Assembly (NCBI RefSeq): GCF_900187885.1
Contig: NZ_FYEK01000027.1
Location: forward strand, 1 to 64,000
DNA length: 64,000 nt
Direction: 5' to 3'
Source of the DNA: Thermoflexus hugenholtzii JAD2
GTDB lineage: Bacteria > Chloroflexota > Anaerolineae > Thermoflexales > Thermoflexaceae
The position numbers and the translations under genes were made by a program. This document shows positions 12,581 to 47,511 of this stretch, piece by piece (the first letter of the stretch is position 1; the number at the start of each line of letters is the position of its first letter). Below the pieces are notes generated by a model. It saw only the letters and a program-made list of their open reading frames with translations. It was not told the origin of the DNA and did no database searches.

Positions 12581-14621
12581 CCTCCTTCCCCATCCGGTTC
12601 GCGCGGAGGCCTTCCGCCTGTGGGCCTCCGGGGCTGTGCACCTGCGGACGCTGGGTCCGGAAGTGTGGATCGCCAGCATCTCCACGGAGTCGCGAGCGAT
12701 GGAGACGCGCTGGCGACGTCCAGGCCCGGAGGAGGCGCGGGCCCCCGAGGCGTTGCGGATCCGGGGTTGCGGATGCCGGTCCGCGAAACCATGCGCCCAC
12801 GAAGGGGCGGCATGGCTGGCCCTGCTGTTCGATGGGGGAGGGTTGCCCGAGGAGGCCCAAGCGGAGCTCCAGCGCCTGGAGGCCCAGTTGGAGCCGCAGA
12901 CCGCCGTTGAGCTGCTGCGCCTCGCCCGGCGCCGCCGCTGGGCCCTGCCCCGCGGGCGCAAGCCGGAGCTGGTGCGGCGCTTGGCCGCCCGGCTCAGCGT
13001 CTACTACCGGCTGGGGCTGTGGCGGGAGGAGCTGGACCCGGAGCTGGAGCGCCTGCTCGGGCTGATCCGCCTGCTCGGCCAGGAGCGGGTGGACCCGGAG
13101 GAGCTGGAAGCCCGCTGGATGCGCTGGGCTGAAGGGGATCGCTTGACTTTCCGGGCCGTGTGGCGTCGGGCCATCCAGCAGGGCCTTCTGATCCCCTGCG
13201 CCCTGGGCCACGACGGGCGGCCGCGCCCTCACGCCCATCTGCCGGCTACCCTCCCGCTCTCCCAGCTTCCACCCCCTGTGTTCCCGGCCACGGTCTACCG
13301 TGGCTTTCCTCCTGAACAGACGGTCGCGGCGCCGCCCCTCCGGCTGCTTCTGGAGGAAGCCCGCCGCTGGTGGGTCCTGCGGCCGCCCGCCCGGATCCTC
13401 CGCCTTCATCCCCAAGCGCATCGCTTTCCCTGGTTATGGGGATGGCCCCACGATCCCGAGGAGGTGGAAGCGCTCCTCGCCCGCCATGCCGGATCGCCCC
13501 CTCCCTACGAATGGCTGACGGTCCCGGCGGAGGAGTTCGATCCCCGCGCCGTCGAGGCGCTGGGGGAACGCATGGGGTTGCCGTGGGAGGGTGCCGCCTT
13601 CATCGCCGAGATCCTCTGGCGTCTCTCCGGCGAGGGCTCGGGGGAAGCGTTCCCCTTCGCTCCGGGCATCGGGGAGGAGGATCCCATCGCCCGCTGGTGG
13701 GAGATCTGGCGGAGCGGGGCGACGCGCTTTGAGATCGCCTGGCTTCGACGTCGGGATCCCACGGTCCGGCTGGTGCGATCCCTGGGGTGGATGGGGGGGA
13801 TCGAGCAGCTTTACTATGAGTGGGGACGGGGCCGGAAGGCCCTCATCGAGTTGCTGGCCACCCTGCCGGATGAATGGGTGGACTGGATGGATCTGGCCCG
13901 GGCGGTGGAGGCGGCCCAGCCGCCCGGCTTCGCGCAGGACCGGCTGGATCAGCCCTGGCGGTTGGTTCGCGGCCGGCCGGCCCAGGAGCCGGTTCCCATT
14001 GCCGAGCATCTGCGCGCCTATCTGGAGGGGACGCTGTTCTGGTTGGGGGCGGTGGCCCTGGTGTATGAGGGGGGATCGCTTCGGGCCTTCCGTCTGACCG
14101 CCCAGGGGCGTCGATGGATCCGGGGGGAGATCCCTGGGGCAGAGGAACCGGAGTCGCTTCCGGAGACCCAATGGCTGGACGAGAGGACATGGTCGGTGCG
14201 GCCGGGGCCGGAGGCGGCCCCGCTGCTCTGGCTGTCGGGTCGGATCGGCCGGCCGATGGGCTCCCCGTTCGTTTTCGCCCTGGACGAGGAGCGCATCGCC
14301 GAGGTGTTCCGGGAGGGCTATCGCCCGGAGGAGATCCTGTCCCGCTTCGAGGCCTGTGGCCTGCCGCCCACAGCCGCGCTGCGAACGGCCCTGGAACGGG
14401 TGTGGGATAGCATGCGGCGGGTCCAGGTGTTTGAGGAGGTCACCATCCTGGAGGCGGAGGACCCGTGGACCCTGCAGGAGCTGCTCGCGGCCACCGGGCT
14501 GGGATCGGCCATTCGGGGCTGGCTTGCCCCCCACGTCGTGGTCATCGAGGAGGCTGCTCTCGAGCGGCTGCTGAAAGAGCTCCGGGATCGGGGATATTTC
14601 CCCACGGTGGTGGAGGGTTGA
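12558..14621 (+). CDS. XPB partner: SWIM zinc finger plus helicase-associated C-terminal domain
   Basis: A 687-residue protein overlapping the XPB gene. Near the N terminus a SWIM-type zinc finger is seen as C71-x-C73-x5-C79-x-H81. A long helical middle includes winged-helix-like segments. The last ~120 residues (from SPFVFALDEERIAEVF to RGYFPTV) match the pattern of the helicase-associated domain (Helicase_C_3 type) that also occurs in the protein next to mycobacterial XPB. No nuclease or ATPase motif is visible. By position it is probably the obligate partner or loader of the helicase, analogous to, but not homologous in appearance with, archaeal Bax1. Confidence 0.75.
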   Translation: MDLDRLLDLLPHPVRAEAFRLWASGAVHLRTLGPEVWIASISTESRAMETRWRRPGPEEARAPEALRIRGCGCRSAKPCAHEGAAWLALLFDGGGLPEEAQAELQRLEAQLEPQTAVELLRLARRRRWALPRGRKPELVRRLAARLSVYYRLGLWREELDPELERLLGLIRLLGQERVDPEELEARWMRWAEGDRLTFRAVWRRAIQQGLLIPCALGHDGRPRPHAHLPATLPLSQLPPPVFPATVYRGFPPEQTVAAPPLRLLLEEARRWWVLRPPARILRLHPQAHRFPWLWGWPHDPEEVEALLARHAGSPPPYEWLTVPAEEFDPRAVEALGERMGLPWEGAAFIAEILWRLSGEGSGEAFPFAPGIGEEDPIARWWEIWRSGATRFEIAWLRRRDPTVRLVRSLGWMGGIEQLYYEWGRGRKALIELLATLPDEWVDWMDLARAVEAAQPPGFAQDRLDQPWRLVRGRPAQEPVPIAEHLRAYLEGTLFWLGAVALVYEGGSLRAFRLTAQGRRWIRGEIPGAEEPESLPETQWLDERTWSVRPGPEAAPLLWLSGRIGRPMGSPFVFALDEERIAEVFREGYRPEEILSRFEACGLPPTAALRTALERVWDSMRRVQVFEEVTILEAEDPWTLQELLAATGLGSAIRGWLAPHVVVIEEAALERLLKELRDRGYFPTVVEG

Positions 14622-14632
14622 TCCACGGTTGT

Positions 14633-14801
14633 TGTAGGAGGGGCTTTCGCCCCGAACTCCTGTCTTCAAGATCCCGAAGGCCACGGATGAAGCCGCCCTC
14701 ACAACCCCGAGCCTTCTGCTTTTGATGACGTGAGGGTCGCTTCCTGCTAGTTGGTGGCCGAAACGAATTTCGGCCCGCAGCGGCACAGGTCGCGGCTCCT
14801 A
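14633..14801 (-). repeat. Dispersed REPIN-like element, inverted copy
   Basis: Read on the minus strand, 14633-14750 aligns nearly end to end with the element at 29585-29711: the GTGGCCTTCGGGATCTTGAAG block, the GGAGTTCGGGGCGAAAGCCCC hairpin end and the CGACCCTCACG block are all shared. A solitary end motif GGTCGCGGCTCCTA (14788-14801) and a perfect hairpin GGCCGAAA-cgaa-TTTCGGCC (14756-14775) lie beside it. No gene is visible in this gap between convergent genes. Confidence 0.7.
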
Positions 14802-29584: not shown

Positions 29585-29711
29585 GTAGGGGCGGCTTCAG
29601 CCGCGACCCTTGCGCCATCGAAGACGGAAGGTTTGGGATTGTGGGAAGCGAATTCATCTGTGGCCTTTGGGACCTTGAAGGCGGAGGTTTGGGGCTGAAG
29701 CCCCTCCTAAC
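29585..29711 (+). repeat. REPIN-like element inside the dcw cluster
   Basis: A 127-bp non-coding element with inverted ends: left GTAGGGGCGGCTTCAGCCGC (29585-29604) and right GGGGCTGAAGCCCCTCCTAA (29691-29710). Each end is itself a hairpin. Related copies lie at 14633-14750 (inverted) and 43995-44112, so the element is dispersed. Here it sits between the CvpA-like gene and murC without breaking either. Confidence 0.75.
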
Positions 29712-40283: not shown

Positions 40284-43200
40284 ATGCGTCTGAAGGCGAT
40301 CGAGCTGCACGGGTTCAAGAGCTTCGCCACGCCCACCCGCCTGGAGTTCCCGGGACGGGTGACGGTCATCGTGGGTCCCAACGGCAGCGGCAAGAGCAAC
40401 ATCGCGGAGGCCATCCGCTGGGCCCTGGGCGAGCAGAGCCTCTCCACCCTCCGGGTCCGCCGGGGGGAGGATCTGATCTTCGCTGGCAGCGACCAGCGGC
40501 CCCGCGCCGGCATGGCGGAGGTGACGCTGATCTTCGACAACGCGGAGGGCGATCTGCCGGTGGACTTCGCCGAGGTCGCCCTAACCCGGCGGGTCTACCG
40601 CGATGGGGAAGGGGAGTATCTCCTCAACGGCAACCGGGTCCGTCTGCGGGACATCCAGGACCTGCTGGGCGCCACGCCCCTGGCCCGGCGGACGTATACC
40701 GTCATCGGTCAGGGGTTGGTGGATGAGGTGCTCCGGATGCGGCCGGAGGAGCGTCGAGCGCTGTTCGAGGAGGCCGCCGGCATCGCCCTCTACCGGATGA
40801 AACGGGAGGAGGCCCTTCGGCGCCTGGAGGCCACCCAGCAGAACCTGACCCGGGTTCGGGATCTGCTCGCGGAGATGACGCCGCGGCTGAACAGCCTTCG
40901 CCGTCAGGCGGAGCGGGCGCGCCAGTATGAGGAGACGCTCTCCCGTCTGAAGGCGCTCTGGCGCCGATGGGCCGCGCGCCGGATGGCCGCGCTGCGTCGG
41001 AGCCTGGAGGAGGCGCAGGCGGCCGTCGCCGAGGCCGAGGCCGCCCGGCTCCGTCACCAGGAACAGCAGGCGGCCTCCGAGGCGGAGGCGGCGCGGCTTC
41101 GAGAGGAGATCCGGCGTCGGCGGGCCGCCCTACAGGAGGAAGAGGTCGCCTGGGGGAAGCTTCAGGAGGCCCTCGCTGACCTGCGCCAGCGGCAGCAGGC
41201 CCTCGAGGAGGCGCTCCGGGCCGTCCGGGAGCGCCGGGAGGCGTTGCAGGAACGTCAGGCGGCCCTGGAGGCCCGGCAACACGCGCTGGAGGAGGCCCGG
41301 GAGGCGCTGTTGCGCCGCGCCCAGGCGCTGCAGGCGCAACGTCAGGAGTGGGAAGCGCGCCATGAGCCGCAGCGCGCCCGAGGCGAGGCCCTCCGTCGTC
41401 AGCTGGAGGCGATTCAGGAGGCGGAGCGGCAGCGCGAGGCGGAGGCCGACCGCCTCGCCCGTCGGCGCCTCTCCCTGGAGGCGTTCTTACGCGAACTGGA
41501 AGAGCAGGCACGCGAGGAGGCCAGCCGTCGGCAGGAACGGGAAGCCCGACAGGCCGCGTTGCAGGAGGAGCGGGAGCGGCTCCGTCGGGAGGCCCAGGCC
41601 TTACAGGAGGCCCGCGAGATCCTGGACCGTCAGGTCGCCCAGGCCCATCGGTCCCTGGAGGAGGCGGAAGCGGAGGTCGCCCGCGCCCGGGAGGCCCTCG
41701 CCCGAGCGGAGGCCGACCAGGCTTACTTGGAATCTTATGCGGAAGCCCTGGCCCGACGCCGGGAGGCTCGGGAGGGATGGTCGGAGGACCTGCGGGCGAT
41801 CCTCTCCGCCGGCCTCCCCGGGGTCCTCGGGGTCTTGGCGGATTTCCTGGAGGTTGATCCCGGCTGGGAGGTCGCCGTGGCGGCCATTCTGGGGCCGCTG
41901 CTCCAGGCGCTGATCGTGCGCGAGGCCCGCGTCCTGGAGGCGCTGCGCGCCCAGGTTCGCCACGGCCTTCCAGTGATCCTTCTGGACGCCCTGCGCTTCG
42001 AGCGGCCCCGCCCGGCCCGACATCGGTTCCTGCTTTCCGGAAGCCCGCCCGTGCCCGCCGGCCTGCTTCCGGCCGCCCGCGTCGTGCGTGCCCCTGAGCC
42101 CCGTCTGCAGGCCTGGCTTGAGCATCGTCTGCAAGGGATCTGGCTGACGAAGACATGGGAGGAGGCCCGGGCCCTGCGGTCGCGTCTGCCCCGATCCGCC
42201 CACATCCTCACCCCAGAGGGCGAGCGCATGAGCGGGGAAGGGATCGTGTGGATCGGCCGGCACACGGCGCCGGAGTCGGCAGGGTGGATCGAAGAATCGC
42301 AATGGCGCGCGCTGCGGGGGCAGCTGGAGGAAGCCCGGCGGGCCCGACGGCACGCGGAGGAGGCGCTGGAACAGGCGATGGGCCGATGGCATCGCGCCCG
42401 GGAGGCCCTGGCAGCCCTCGAGGAGGAGCGCCGCGCCCTCGAAGCCCGATGGGAGGCCCTTCAGCGCGCCTTCCGGGAGGTCGAGGGACAGCTGGAGGCG
42501 GAGGCGCGAGCCCTCCAGGCCATGGCCCGGGAAGCGGCGGCCTGGGAGGCCCGGCGGGCTGAGCTGGCAGCCGAACAGGCGGACCTGACCCGACGGGAAC
42601 AGGCCCTCACCGAGGAGCGACAGGCGCTGGCGGAAGCCCGAGCCTCCCTGGAGAGGGAGCTGGCAGCCCTGGGCCTAGAGGGGATGGAGCAGGAACTGGC
42701 CCGCCTGCGAGCGGAGGAACGGTTGCTGGAGGAGGAGCGCCGTCAGGTGGAAGAGCAGATCGCCCGCCTGATCGCGGAGCGACAGGCTCTCGAAGTCGAG
42801 CGGATGACCCTGGAGGATCCGGAGGGCGCGCCCTCATGGCAGGCCCTGGAGGCCGAGCAAGCCCAGCTTCAGGAAGCCCTCCGGGATCTGGAGGCACAGC
42901 GTCAAGCACGGGAAGCCCGGCGGGCTGAAGAGATGACGCTCCTTCTATCCCTGGAATCGGCCTTCGAGGCCGTATGGGAGCAGGTGGAAACCCTCCGCCG
43001 CATTGGGCAGGAGCAGGAGGAAGCGGTGCACGCCGCGCGGCTGGAGCGGGTGCGCCGGGAGGGGGAGTTGCGGGCCTTTCAGCAGGCGTTGCAGGAGGAG
43101 TGGCGCCACCTGGAGGGAGCCGCCGGGTCGGAGGAGGTCGGGGAGCTGAACTTGGAAGCGCTGGAGGAGATCCAGACGGAGGAGCCGCTGGAGGCCCTGG

Positions 43201-43868
43201 AGGCGGAGGTGGAGGCGTTGCGGCGGGCGTTGCGCCGGCTGGGGCCGGTGAACCCCGAGGCGGCCGCCGAATACGCCGCGCTCCAGGAGCGCCACGCCTT
43301 CCTGACCGCCCAGGTGGCGGATCTGGAAGCGGCGTCCGCCTCCCTGCGGCAGACCGTGGAAGCCCTGGATCAGCAGATGCAGCAGGCTTTTATGGAGACG
43401 TTCCGGGCGGTGGGCCGCGCCTTCCGGGAGACCTTCACCGCGCTGTTCGGCGGGGGAAACGCCCGCCTGGCCCTCACCCCAGCCGAGCGATGGGATGAAG
43501 CGGGGGTGGAGATCTACGTCCGCGTGCCCGGGAAACGAACCCAGAGCCTCATGATGCTCTCAGGAGGGGAGAAAGCGCTGACGGCCACCGCCCTCATCTT
43601 CGCCCTGCTGAGCGTCCGCCCTTCCCCCTTCGTGATCCTGGACGAGGCGGATGCCGCGCTGGATGAGGCCAACATCGGCCGCTTCCGGGAGATGATCCGC
43701 CGGCTGTCCGAGCGCACTCAGTTCATCCTCATCACCCACAACCGGGGCACCGTCGAGGTCGCGGACGTCCTGTATGGGGTCACCATGCGCCCCGATGGCA
43801 CCTCCCAGGTCCTGAGCCTGCGCTTGGAGGAAGCGGAACGGGTGATGGCAACGCCGGCGAAGCCATGA
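40284..43868 (+). CDS. smc: Chromosome segregation ATPase SMC
   Basis: 1194 residues: Walker A GPNGSGKSN (31-39), long Arg/Glu/Ala-rich coiled coils, a hinge at about 510-650 starting GLPGVLGVLADFLEVD, the return coil, ABC signature LSGGEKALTA (~1091) and Walker B FVILDEADAALDE (~1118). Condenses and organises DNA with ScpA/ScpB, whose genes are not in the window. ATG 40284 starts the conserved head; upstream in-frame sequence overlaps the LCP gene and is not used. Confidence 0.97.
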   Translation: MRLKAIELHGFKSFATPTRLEFPGRVTVIVGPNGSGKSNIAEAIRWALGEQSLSTLRVRRGEDLIFAGSDQRPRAGMAEVTLIFDNAEGDLPVDFAEVALTRRVYRDGEGEYLLNGNRVRLRDIQDLLGATPLARRTYTVIGQGLVDEVLRMRPEERRALFEEAAGIALYRMKREEALRRLEATQQNLTRVRDLLAEMTPRLNSLRRQAERARQYEETLSRLKALWRRWAARRMAALRRSLEEAQAAVAEAEAARLRHQEQQAASEAEAARLREEIRRRRAALQEEEVAWGKLQEALADLRQRQQALEEALRAVRERREALQERQAALEARQHALEEAREALLRRAQALQAQRQEWEARHEPQRARGEALRRQLEAIQEAERQREAEADRLARRRLSLEAFLRELEEQAREEASRRQEREARQAALQEERERLRREAQALQEAREILDRQVAQAHRSLEEAEAEVARAREALARAEADQAYLESYAEALARRREAREGWSEDLRAILSAGLPGVLGVLADFLEVDPGWEVAVAAILGPLLQALIVREARVLEALRAQVRHGLPVILLDALRFERPRPARHRFLLSGSPPVPAGLLPAARVVRAPEPRLQAWLEHRLQGIWLTKTWEEARALRSRLPRSAHILTPEGERMSGEGIVWIGRHTAPESAGWIEESQWRALRGQLEEARRARRHAEEALEQAMGRWHRAREALAALEEERRALEARWEALQRAFREVEGQLEAEARALQAMAREAAAWEARRAELAAEQADLTRREQALTEERQALAEARASLERELAALGLEGMEQELARLRAEERLLEEERRQVEEQIARLIAERQALEVERMTLEDPEGAPSWQALEAEQAQLQEALRDLEAQRQAREARRAEEMTLLLSLESAFEAVWEQVETLRRIGQEQEEAVHAARLERVRREGELRAFQQALQEEWRHLEGAAGSEEVGELNLEALEEIQTEEPLEALEAEVEALRRALRRLGPVNPEAAAEYAALQERHAFLTAQVADLEAASASLRQTVEALDQQMQQAFMETFRAVGRAFRETFTALFGGGNARLALTPAERWDEAGVEIYVRVPGKRTQSLMMLSGGEKALTATALIFALLSVRPSPFVILDEADAALDEANIGRFREMIRRLSERTQFILITHNRGTVEVADVLYGVTMRPDGTSQVLSLRLEEAERVMATPAKP

Positions 43869-43879
43869 GCCACCCTTCG

Positions 43880-44180
43880 GTAGGAGCGGCTTCCGCTGGG
43901 GCCTATCGTAAGAGTGGCTTCAGCCGCGACCCACTAAGTAAGCTGAAATTCATTTCAGTCTGCATCCTGGGGATGAGGGGGAGCGCCTGCCACCGAGGCT
44001 TTCGCCGCGACCCTCGCTGTCTCGAAGACGAGGGTTCGGGTTATAGGAACAGTCTTCGCCACGGCCGCTCGCGGGATCGAAAACGAAGGTTCGGGACGAA
44101 AGCTCCCCCTCCAAAGATCGATGTCTGTAGGAGCGCTTTCGCCGCGACCTTTCGCAGGCTCGAAGGCGGAGGTTCAGGCC
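43880..44180 (+). repeat. Cluster of REPIN-like units after smc
   Basis: Contains end motifs GTAGGAGCGGCTTCCGC (43880) and GTAAGAGTGGCTTCAGCCGC (43908), a full-length relative of the 127-bp element at 43995-44112 and a partial unit from 44127. Shared inner words are CTCGAAGACGAGGGTTCGGG and CGAAGGCGGAGGTTC. A palindrome CTGAAATtcATTTCAG lies at 43943-43958. Open frames across it are not gene-like. Confidence 0.65.
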
Positions 44181-44509: not shown

Positions 44510-44515
44510 TATAAT
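44510..44515 (+). promoter_or_regulatory. Isolated TATAAT ahead of a structured non-coding segment
   Basis: A perfect -10 hexamer without a recognisable -35 at the usual distance. It lies directly before the segment at 44521-44668 that can fold into a long rod. Confidence 0.3.
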
Positions 44516-44520
44516 CGAAT

Positions 44521-44668
44521 TGTCAGGCAGCGACCCGGAGCCTGTTTGCCCGGATGTCTCTCTCTGACCGGTGAGGGTTGCACGACCCACGAGCTCAGGC
44601 CCGAACCGATGCACGCGAGGCGCTCGCCGGTGGGAGAGCCGGGAGGTTGGCATCTTCCGTTCTTTTAG
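44521..44668 (+). ncRNA. Candidate structured small RNA
   Basis: Four paired blocks line up in order: CCCGG (44549) with CCGGG (44639), CTCTC (44560) with GAGAG (44634), ACCGG (44567) with CCGGT (44627), GAG (44573) with CTC (44623). The CTCGC at 44623 can instead pair with GCGAG at 44615, so two folds compete. It follows a TATAAT box and ends near TTCTTTTAG. It does not match SRP RNA, tmRNA, RNase P or a tRNA that I can recognise. Weak evidence: folding potential only. Confidence 0.25.
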
Positions 44669-45091
44669 CCGGCGCAGGCCGGTCGTCGGCCGAAGGCTTT
44701 TGCGCCGATTGAAATCGGCCTTCTCAGGCGCTGCGCGCCGGGCGTCGGCCTTCGCCGACGCAAAAGACAACCTTCGGTCGGCGCAGGCCGACCGTTGGCC
44801 GAAGGTCTCTTGAGGTCGAATTCATTCGGCGTGCGGGCCGGTCGTCGGCTGAAGGCGTTCGCGCCGATTGAAATCGGCCTTCTCAGGCGCTGCGCGCCGG
44901 CGTCGGCCTTCGCCGACGCAAAAGACAATCCTTCGGTCGGCGCAGGCCGACCGTCGGCCGAAGGCCCTCGAAGGTCGAATTCATTCGACGCATCCGCCGA
45001 CCGTTGGCCGAAGGTCTCTTGAGGCCGAATTCATTCAGCATCCAGGCTGACCCTCGGCTGAAGGCCGTTCGAGGTCGAATTCATTCAACGC
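44669..45091 (+). repeat. Tandem 159-bp duplication plus short tandem units rich in nested palindromes
   Basis: 44672-44830 and 44831-44989 are near-identical direct copies. Each contains GCCGATTgaAATCGGC, GGCGCTGCGCGCC, GCGTCGGCcttcGCCGACGC and GGTCGGCgcagGCCGACC, the last enclosed by CCTTCGG...CCGAAGG. Two further short units (44992-45040 and 45041-45090) keep only the tail GACCGT-GGCCGAAGG-GTCGAATTCATTC. The GAATTCATTC end recurs four times. Not a CRISPR array, because no spacers of constant length occur. Confidence 0.8.
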
Positions 45092-45126
45092 GCAGGCGCG
45101 CGACCCGGAAGGGAAGGGGGAACCGG

Positions 45127-47511
45127 ATGCAGGAGATCACGCTTTCCCAGTATAGCGCGGAGATCGAACGCCTGCTCCAGGACGAAGCCTATGATGAGGC
45201 CATCGCCCACTGCATGCACATCCTGAAGCGCTACCCGAAATACCAGCGGGCCTACCGTCTGCTGGGCCAGGCTTACCTGGAGAAGGGCCAGGATGATGCG
45301 GCGATGGACCTCTTCGCCCGGGCCCTGAGCGCGGATCCGGAGGATTTCCTCCCCCGCATCGGCCTCAGCGTGATCTACGAGCGCCGTGGGCAAATCGCCG
45401 AGGCGGCCTGGCAGATGGAACGGGCCTATGAGCTGCTCCCTTACAACGAGTTCATCCGGGAGGAGCTGGCCAAACTCTACGCCCGCCGGGACGGAGCCCC
45501 CCCGGAGTTCCTGCCCCTCACCCGGGGCGCCCTCGCCCGCCTCTACGCCCGGGGCCATCTCTACGCCGCCGCCATCGCGGAGCTGGAGAGCCTGCTCCAG
45601 GAGGCGCCCCAGCGCGCCGACCTCCGCGTCCTTTACCTGGAGGTGCTGTGGCGGGATGGGCGGCGCCTCGAGGCCGCGCGGGTCGCGCAGAGCCTGCTCC
45701 AGGAGCTCCCCTATTGCCTGAAGGCCAACCTCATCCTGGGTGAGTTCTGGATGGCCAGTGGCCGCGAGGCGGAGGCCCGCGAGCTGTTCCGCCGCGCCGC
45801 CGCCGTAGACCCCGAGCTCACCCTGGTCCCGGATCTCCTCGGGCCGACGGCCTCGATCCAGCCGGCGGAGGTGCGGATCGAACGCCTGATCTATGTGCCT
45901 CCCACCCCGGCCTACGCCCGACCCGCTGTGGAGGAGGGCGAGATCCCCGAATGGCTCCAGGCCCTGGGCCTCCCATTGGGAGAGGAAGTCCCGACCGCAC
46001 CCGCTGCCGAGGAAGCCCCAGCCGCGCTGGAAGCCCTGGAAGCCGCCCCACCGGAGACTCCCCAAACCCCATCCCCCGAGCCGGTGGCGGAGACCCTGGA
46101 ATGGTTACGATCAATAGAGGTGACTCCGGTGGAGCCGGAGGAAGAACCTTTGGGGGCTCCGGAGGAAGTCCCGCCTCCGGAGCTGGAGTTGCCGGAATGG
46201 CTACAGGAGGAGTTCTCCCTCCCCTCCGAAGCGCCTTCGTGGATGGAAGGACCGGGGGAGGGGGAGGCTGGACCTTCATGGATGGAGGGTCTCTTCCCGC
46301 CGGAGATGCCCGCCCCAGTCTCTGAGGCCCCGAGTGAAGAGGCGCCGCCCGAGATCCCGTGGGAAGCCCCCGGGGAGCTCCCGCCGGCCCCGGAGGAACC
46401 GGGAGAGGTCCCGATGGAGAGGCCGGGCGAGGAGGCTGCGCCGGAGGTCGCCGGCCTGCCGCCGCTGCCGGAGTCGCTGAGCCCGGAGGAGGCCCTGGCC
46501 TGGCTGGCCCGGATCGCCGAGGGCAAGGAGGAGATGCTGCGGGCCCAGGCGCAACAGGAGGCGGAAGCCCGTCTGGCGGAGATCCTGGGCCGTCGGCCGC
46601 CGGAAGCTCCCACCCCCCCGCTTCCGACGCCGCCGGAGGAGATCCCCGAGGCTCCCATAACGGAAGCCGCTCCGGAGGCGGCGTCAGCCGAAGAGGCCGC
46701 GCTCCCGGACTGGCTGCTGGCCCTCAAGCCACCGGAGGAGGAGATCGCCCCGGCCCTCGAGGAGGAGGAACGCCGGTTCCGGGAGCTCCTGGAGGAGGCG
46801 GCCGCCCAGCCCCTGGAGATCCCGCCGGAGTGGCAGGCGGCGATGGGGATCTTCCCGGAGGCCCTTCCGGAGGCGCCATCTCCGGAAGCGGCCCCGCTCG
46901 AAGCAGCGCCTCCGGAGGAGATCGAGACGCCACCGCTGGAAGGCGCCCTCCCCTTCCCGACGCCGGAGATCGCCCCCGAAGCTGTCGGCGAGGCGATGCC
47001 GGAAGATCTTCAAGTCGAGGAAGTGTGGGAAGGGAAGGGACTAGCCCCGGAGGCCGTTGAGACGGCACCTATCTGGGATCTCCTGGCGGTGGATGAGGGC
47101 CTCCCGCCGGCTGGGAAGATCCCGGAGCCCGCCCCCGCTGTGGATCCCCGCTGGCTGGAGCGCCTGCACGCGGTGCCGGTCGCCGAGACCATGGCCGGCG
47201 CGCTGCTGGGGGTCCTGGCGGATTATGAGGCCCGCCTGAAGGCCCAGCCTCGGGATCACGAGACCCGCCTGGCAATGGCCCGGTTGCTCTTCAACTTGGG
47301 CGACACCGCCCGGGCCGTTCGGGAGTATCAACGACTGATGCGGGTGGCGGCGATGCGGGAGCGCGTGATCGCCGATCTGGAGCAGGCAGTGCAGCTGCGC
47401 CCCGACGAATCCCGCCTGTGGCAGGCCTTGGGGGATGCCTACCAGGAGGCCGGGAAGCTGCAGAAGGCCCTGGAGGCCTATCGCCGGGCTCTGGCCCACC
47501 TGGGTTCGTGA
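45127..47511 (+). CDS. Large TPR protein with acidic Pro-rich linker and repeated PEWL motifs
   Basis: 794 residues. N-terminal TPRs (~10-240, e.g. AYRLLGQAYLEKGQDDAAMDLFARAL), a ~430-residue acidic Pro/Glu linker, and a C-terminal TPR segment (LWQALGDAYQEAGKLQKALEAYRRAL). The linker carries spaced Trp motifs: IPEWLQALGLP, TLEWLRSI, LPEWLQEEF, PSWMEG twice, LPDWLLALKP. Such layouts suggest a scaffold that displays several docking sites. ATG 45127 lies after a purine-rich GGGAAGGGGG. Cytoplasmic by sequence; partner unknown. Confidence 0.82.
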   Translation: MQEITLSQYSAEIERLLQDEAYDEAIAHCMHILKRYPKYQRAYRLLGQAYLEKGQDDAAMDLFARALSADPEDFLPRIGLSVIYERRGQIAEAAWQMERAYELLPYNEFIREELAKLYARRDGAPPEFLPLTRGALARLYARGHLYAAAIAELESLLQEAPQRADLRVLYLEVLWRDGRRLEAARVAQSLLQELPYCLKANLILGEFWMASGREAEARELFRRAAAVDPELTLVPDLLGPTASIQPAEVRIERLIYVPPTPAYARPAVEEGEIPEWLQALGLPLGEEVPTAPAAEEAPAALEALEAAPPETPQTPSPEPVAETLEWLRSIEVTPVEPEEEPLGAPEEVPPPELELPEWLQEEFSLPSEAPSWMEGPGEGEAGPSWMEGLFPPEMPAPVSEAPSEEAPPEIPWEAPGELPPAPEEPGEVPMERPGEEAAPEVAGLPPLPESLSPEEALAWLARIAEGKEEMLRAQAQQEAEARLAEILGRRPPEAPTPPLPTPPEEIPEAPITEAAPEAASAEEAALPDWLLALKPPEEEIAPALEEEERRFRELLEEAAAQPLEIPPEWQAAMGIFPEALPEAPSPEAAPLEAAPPEEIETPPLEGALPFPTPEIAPEAVGEAMPEDLQVEEVWEGKGLAPEAVETAPIWDLLAVDEGLPPAGKIPEPAPAVDPRWLERLHAVPVAETMAGALLGVLADYEARLKAQPRDHETRLAMARLLFNLGDTARAVREYQRLMRVAAMRERVIADLEQAVQLRPDESRLWQALGDAYQEAGKLQKALEAYRRALAHLGS

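Follow-up and report, generated by a model that had tools for sequence, protein, structure and literature searches.

Among the systems closest to the one described here, IS200/IS605 elements and their MITEs combine an HUH/Y1 enzyme with hairpin ends and, for TTAC-type targets, a T-rich motif 5΄ of the left hairpin. In this family the gene is present in each copy, or has a high copy number. A second system is that of the REP, BIME and REPIN sequences and their TnpA-REP (RAYT) transposase, the REPtron, in which intergenic, dispersed, palindromic elements of one or two hairpins, bearing a GT[AG]G foot, have inverted halves that form one long hairpin, and copies of the element flank a single class 2 Y1 gene. 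According to the available text of Quentin et al. (2018, PMC6006769), REP classes without GT[AG]G exist (2.6 and 3), and subclass 1.2 of TnpA-Y1, listed as 'REP: no', comprises relatives of the IS200 transposase without IS features or REPs, of about 148 aa and low copy number, generally without the typical terminal IS200 structures and mostly from Cyanobacteria and Bacteroidetes. The TIRYT genes and TIRtrons, in the accessible part of their description (BMC Genomics 2013, PMC3733652), are Y1 genes with flanking inverted repeats, some of them of dispersed families; the examples are RAYT-like, and direct and inverted flanking six-hairpin repeats are absent from that account.

We have analysed a window of 64,000 nucleotides from Thermoflexus hugenholtzii JAD2 (contig NZ_FYEK01000027.1, positions 1 to 64,000), in which a hairpin-rich array lies between smc and a gene for a TPR-repeat protein. 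We consider it likely that this array arose by insertion and local amplification of a REP/REPIN-like, non-autonomous mobile element, a variant of the REPtron, whose hairpins would be the substrate of a subclass-1.2 TnpA and whose copies in this genome are probably relics. As in REPtrons, the element is intergenic, dispersed and palindromic, its inverted halves fold into one long hairpin, and in three relatives its copies, or repeats of the same layout, flank a single Y1 gene. Unlike in REPtrons, there are six hairpins in about 130 bp, the arrays run head-to-tail with periods of 159, 109 and 50 bp, and the transposase belongs to class 1. Since the GT[AG]G foot is absent, its place being taken by a left end CTTTC[A/G]C, we call the element REP-like and not a canonical REP. 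This left end resembles the T-rich motif of IS200/IS605, a family from which the element differs by its tandem arrays, its six hairpins and the scarcity of its gene. The transposase shares with subclass 1.2, as far as the available text on that subclass goes, its motifs, its length and its low copy number; in contrast to the published 'REP: no', dispersed hairpin repeats here flank the gene, in Chloroflexota and in other phyla.

The array upstream of the TPR gene

The repeat search resolved positions 44669–45091 into a pair of 159-bp copies that are 93% alike, followed by two incomplete ones of 50 bp. Tandem Repeats Finder reported a period of 159 (2.0 copies, 93% matches) at 44677–44987 and a 50-bp period (3.2 copies) at 44940–45097, and a second repeat search of the window returned the same families. 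The two near-identical copies with two short partial ones, described in an earlier note on this DNA, are therefore real; the palindromes which that note named are present (hairpins 3 and 4 in Table 1, the latter inside CCTTCGG..CCGAAGG), and every copy does terminate in GAATTCATTC. The array is beyond chance, since the word of the first hairpin named occurs twice in the window while 0.00 occurrences are expected from shuffles. Folded as single-stranded DNA, both cores gave z-scores of −4.3 to −5.3 on both strands, with none of 200 shuffles as stable; in this fold the two ends pair together and the internal hairpins persist.

Table 1. Features of the smc–TPR locus (window coordinates)
Feature	Position	Strand	Evidence
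smc	40284..43868	+	NCBIfam TIGR02168, 868 bits
TATAAT box	44510..44515	+	alignment by eye with four relatives, where it lies directly 5΄ of the TPR-gene RBS
Incomplete first copy, restricted to hairpins 4-5 (model positions 74-105)	44667..44698	+	covariance model R1, E 7e-5
Left-end motif CTTTTGC preceding hairpin 1, proposed guide/target motif	44697..44703	+	family consensus CTTTC[A/G]C; information content
First full six-hairpin core element	44704..44830	+	R1 143 bits on +, 87 bits on -; BLAST
Hairpin 1 GCCGATT-GA-AATCGGC	44704..44719	+	sequence; pair counts
Hairpin 2 GGCGC-TGC-GCGCC	44727..44739	+	sequence; pair counts
Hairpin 3 GCGTCGGC-CTTC-GCCGACGC	44742..44761	+	sequence; pair counts
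Hairpin 4 GGTCGGC-GCAG-GCCGACC	44776..44793	+	sequence; 10 both-side changes U-A to C-G, one pair
Hairpin 5 GGCC-GAA-GGTC	44797..44807	+	sequence; pair counts
Hairpin 6 GTCGAAT-TC-ATTCGGC	44815..44830	+	sequence; one pair 35 C-G, 35 U-A across 76 copies
Second full six-hairpin core element	44863..44989	+	R1 143 bits on +, 97 bits on -
Two incomplete 50-bp copies, restricted to hairpins 4-5-6	44996..45089	+	repeat searches; R1 25.8 bits
TPR-repeat protein gene, array in its 5΄ leader	45127..47511	+	gene call; Pfam TPR

The placement 'just downstream of smc' holds by position only: smc ends 800 bp before the array, which sits between a TATAAT box and the ribosome-binding site of the TPR-protein gene that follows. 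A promoter scan gave no full sigma-70 match. A terminator-like stem with a T tail, whose letters are identical in the sister species (G004), lies at 44640–44659, between the box and the array. Elsewhere in the window, the six-hairpin model has a weak match on the minus strand at 14446–14568 (14 bits, E 0.005), and a second short repeat resembling GTAGGAGCGGCTTCAGCCGCGAC is found at 43880–43930, 29585–29607 and 14634–14656 (4 matches, 0.08 expected), a type of sequence known in REP elements elsewhere. No Rfam family reached its threshold for the array; the best match, BjrC80, scored 26 bits with a gathering score of 80 and was judged to be due to chance.

The core of each full copy, 127–128 bp long, comprises six hairpins that are perfect or nearly so, numbers 1–3 and 4–6 standing in mirror order about a linker (3+3). 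Because the core is a pseudo-palindrome, the covariance model of one strand also matches the other. Both ends are defined. Counting one left end per array in 28 arrays of this genome, the seven bases 5΄ of hairpin 1 are conserved (0.7–1.3 bits) and those beyond are at background; in 37 arrays two conserved bases follow hairpin 6, and then none. An alignment of 76 distinct copies, drawn from five genomes, has standard pairs in 98.2% of its pair cells, and versions of the pairing scheme slid along the sequence are only 26–40% paired. Both-side changes number 49, the shuffled mean being 14.2 (sd 9.9) with 0 of 500 shuffles reaching this value, a count that is not a probability as related copies share changes, and the signal comes mostly from two pairs, one in hairpin 6 and one in hairpin 4. 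These compensatory base-pair changes lend support to the predicted pairing of the hairpin arms.

Dispersal of the element and history of the arrays

The T. hugenholtzii genome (G000; 3.2 Mb in 78 contigs) holds at least 69 BLAST matches to the element (40 of 86 first-look candidates scored) and at least 125 covariance-model matches, both strands counted (150 of 6186 candidates scored). The stretches around the BLAST matches contain 40 arrays, in which 57 units cover more than 90 model positions, and 39 of the 40 overlap predicted genes by no more than 20 bp, genes being called with a hexamer model trained on ten hand-picked genes of the window and then on the window and the G004 stretches. Nine genes (L122, L123, L073, L075, L068, L115, L076, L061 and L067) end at a TGA stop codon contributed by the end hairpin of the element read backwards (..GAATGA), so insertions have supplied the ends of these genes; a tenth gene (L116) terminates within hairpin 1. 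A third repeated motif, near CCACGAATCAGGGCGCGAATACACGAAT, was seen by eye just 5΄ of the arrays in L066, L068, L074, L109 and L113. A bias of array orientation by replication strand was not demonstrable, the local GC skew of 32 G004 stretches being too weak.

For 32 of the 40 arrays, both flanks match one same array of G004 among the fetched stretches around matches, to which the comparison was limited; dispersal thus predates the split of the two species, and recent change has been local. For the other eight no single G004 array matches on either side, and L068 and L121 among them match a different array on each flank. The span is larger in G004 for 29 of the 32 common arrays, with means of 203 bp in G000 and 665 bp in G004, and the short arrays and absent transposase of G000, an assembly in 78 contigs, may partly reflect collapsed assembly. 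Scores to an element profile, seeded with unequal numbers from both genomes, have a median of 115 bits in G000 and 121 bits in G004 (p 2e-4), a difference to which we attach no weight given that seeding. No insertion or excision event was caught between these two genomes, in which the sites are mostly common and the copy number differs, a difference that recombination alone can produce.

Across the genomes compared, element matches range from 0 (G005 and G007) to 192 (G004), with at least 72 in G001. Upstream of the TPR gene the array is absent in G005, G008, G001 and G003, where the TATAAT box stands directly before the ribosome-binding site, and G006 has a degraded array. At a second locus there is one degraded unit in G006, one unit in G000 and many in G004. 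The smc–TPR locus of the G000 lineage is about 600 bp longer than in the four genomes with no array, with GCGACCCGGA occurring twice at the borders (44530 and 45100); no clean target site could be read there, as just part of the extra 600 bp is element.

Y1 transposases flanked by hairpin repeats

In two relatives a Y1 transposase ORF lies between arrays of the element: one of 144 aa in G004 (L079:13595-14029; Pfam PF01797, 76 bits, E 3.2e-21) and one of 160 aa in Candidatus Thermoflexus japonica HRbin22 (G008, L126:3644-4126; 84 bits, E 1.3e-23). Both reach the NCBIfam IS200/IS605 model (58 and 67 bits, cut-off 55) and do not reach REP_Tyr_transpos (25 bits, cut-off 80), and their solved structural relatives are IS200-like transposases such as that of ISHp608. 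The transposase carries the motifs YIQRQKEHH, WQ and DHLH, with Y115, Q119, H123, W95 and Q96 invariant in the A2 alignment; the combination of YxxxQxxHH, WQ and DHuH fits an assignment to subclass 1.2 of TnpA-Y1, as judged from the motifs. A third relative, Thermoflexus sp. SKYG36 (G003), has a Y1 gene between repeats of the same layout and another sequence, and the covariance model R1 matches on both sides.

G004 has one strong and three weaker Y1 matches, one of which was seen lying in arrays. The G000 counterpart of its transposase site (L068:952-1109) is a single unit with no transposase, and the sequences bordering this unit match the two G004 arrays that enclose the gene. The search of G000 for Y1 transposases gave none (0 matches to PF01797), so that the idea of a RAYT-type gene there was given up, and no clear subclass-1.2 transposase was found in G001 despite its many element copies.

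One array locus is common to three genomes, and the gene between the arrays is of the Uma2 family (PF05685) in G000 (L067:3207-3857) and G001 (L124:3333-3977) and the Y1 transposase in G008. The Uma2-family gene was considered as the mobiliser and rejected, since G008 has the transposase at the same place.

We extended the comparison by a scan with the transposase protein alignment over 84,980 species, each represented by one genome, and kept the best 80 of 234 loci, which are subclass-1.2-like. By their record titles these belong to Chloroflexota, Cyanobacteria, Armatimonadota, Gemmatimonadota and others, and 75 of the 80 carry the YxxxQ/ExxH/IH motif. Over the 58 of the 80 loci that entered this profile, hairpin content peaks by the gene: in the 100 bp next to it hairpins take up 12% and 20% of bases, and beyond 1 kb 1–4%. 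Over all 80 loci, 22 of them placed by match coordinates, hairpin content by the transposase is 0.168 (160 flanks), against 0.081 by other ORFs of the same loci (217 flanks; p 2e-10). In 50 of the 78 testable loci the 600-bp flanks on the two sides have sequence in common (at least 40 bits), and in 28 they have none at that level, whereas a control of the left flank with the region 1 kb further right gave 0 of 72.

Among the Y1 loci of the relatives, common flanks were found in 10 of 16 testable subclass-1.2-like loci and in 0 of 10 testable others, with the class assigned by a simple motif search, the non-1.2 labels of L155, L175, L176 and L181 uncertain, too little flank in L163, L179 and L183, and L161 excluded; some loci of the two Y1 sets are the same places (e.g. 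L172/L184 and L169/L187). Although built from Thermoflexus copies only, R1 has matches at E ≤0.001 in 39 of the 80 loci; in each of these the gene has a match no further than 700 bp away, and in 19 it has matches on either side, with rough E-values and weak scores that GC-rich, hairpin-rich DNA may inflate. Of the 99 distinct R1 matches, 87 lie in the gene-proximal 30% of bases. Many copies in other Anaerolineae families score 15–45 bits higher with R1 than with a model of sequence alone (103 against 65 bits in L036, 87 against 42 in L040). R1 also matches 5 of 14 subclass-1.2-like loci of the relatives' Y1 set and none of 11 loci of other Y1 kinds; some of the others (L160, L162 and L164) have, by eye, hairpin repeats of another layout. 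The flanking repeats are dispersed in their own genomes, with 75 matches in G009, 85 in G047 and 10, spread over several contigs, in G013. All four matches of G020 lie by the transposase gene, and the repeat of that genome is matched 26 times in G033, mostly weakly.

A putative mobile element and the alternatives

If the array is an amplified insertion, the mobile unit would be an element of about 137 bp, in which two sets of three hairpins in mirror order, separated by a linker, stand between a T-rich left end and a right end of two bases. By analogy with IS200/IS605 and REP (PMC6006769, in its available part), its hairpins would form when the DNA is single-stranded, and a subclass-1.2 IS200-like HUH/tyrosine transposase would recognise and bind them during replication, cut beside the T-rich motif on the left and 3΄ of hairpin 6, and rejoin the ends. 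Tandem growth might be due either to the enzyme or to recombination. In G000 the copies are probably relics, since no transposase gene was found there; that gene may have been lost, and the copies would have been kept by descent, their number altered via recombination or slippage between tandem copies.

The alternative that fares best, unlikely in our view, is a plain satellite-like repeat spread by recombination alone, the transposase being a passenger that landed in repeats. The recent change is indeed local, with nearly all the common arrays longer in G004 at unchanged sites, but the ends of the element are sharp, and it is subclass 1.2, not other Y1 kinds, that has repeats on its flanks across many phyla, the repeat sequences being different. 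We find it still less probable that the hairpins act in transcripts, as a leader, attenuator or terminator. The array does lie in the 5΄ leader of the TPR gene, just 3΄ of a terminator-like stem, and the compensatory changes are compatible with RNA too; however, the strands of the genes upstream and downstream of the 40 G000 arrays (17 --, 9 -+, 8 ++ and 6 +-) show that orientation to genes is not fixed, the model matches on both strands, and Rfam offers no family at threshold. Least tenable is an array bound by a nucleoid or SMC-related protein that organises the chromosome, an idea suggested by dense palindromes near smc and by the presence of the element in many intergenic regions, as the same place is empty in four congeners, copy number varies from none to 192 matches, elements flank a transposase in relatives and the neighbour of smc is just one of 40 loci.

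The earlier note had offered both a protein-binding or chromosome-organising site and a mobile repeat, and had named units spread through the genome as the outcome that speaks against the former; they are dispersed in 40 arrays, intergenic almost without exception, and with the Y1 genes lying between arrays in relatives it is the mobile repeat that is supported. Under the preferred reading of an amplified mobile insertion, any protein binding to the array would likely consist solely in the recognition of hairpins by the transposase.

In the literature searched, mostly without subscription papers, we found no report of this element–transposase system, and in a term search of the consulted text of the Thermoflexus genome paper (PMC8129789) neither transposons nor palindromes came up, and CRISPR repeats did once. 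Whether subclass 1.2 as a whole is a previously unrecognised, cross-phylum REPtron lineage seems to us evenly balanced; it would be the partner of multi-hairpin, pseudo-palindromic elements that keep their layout while their sequence changes by paired mutations, and would drive their dispersal and tandem growth. The Thermoflexus system adds to the Chloroflexota a REP-like system of unusual architecture. The substrate of subclass 1.2 was unknown, and a dispersed six-hairpin element with defined ends is a concrete candidate for it, so that the function of this subclass becomes directly testable.
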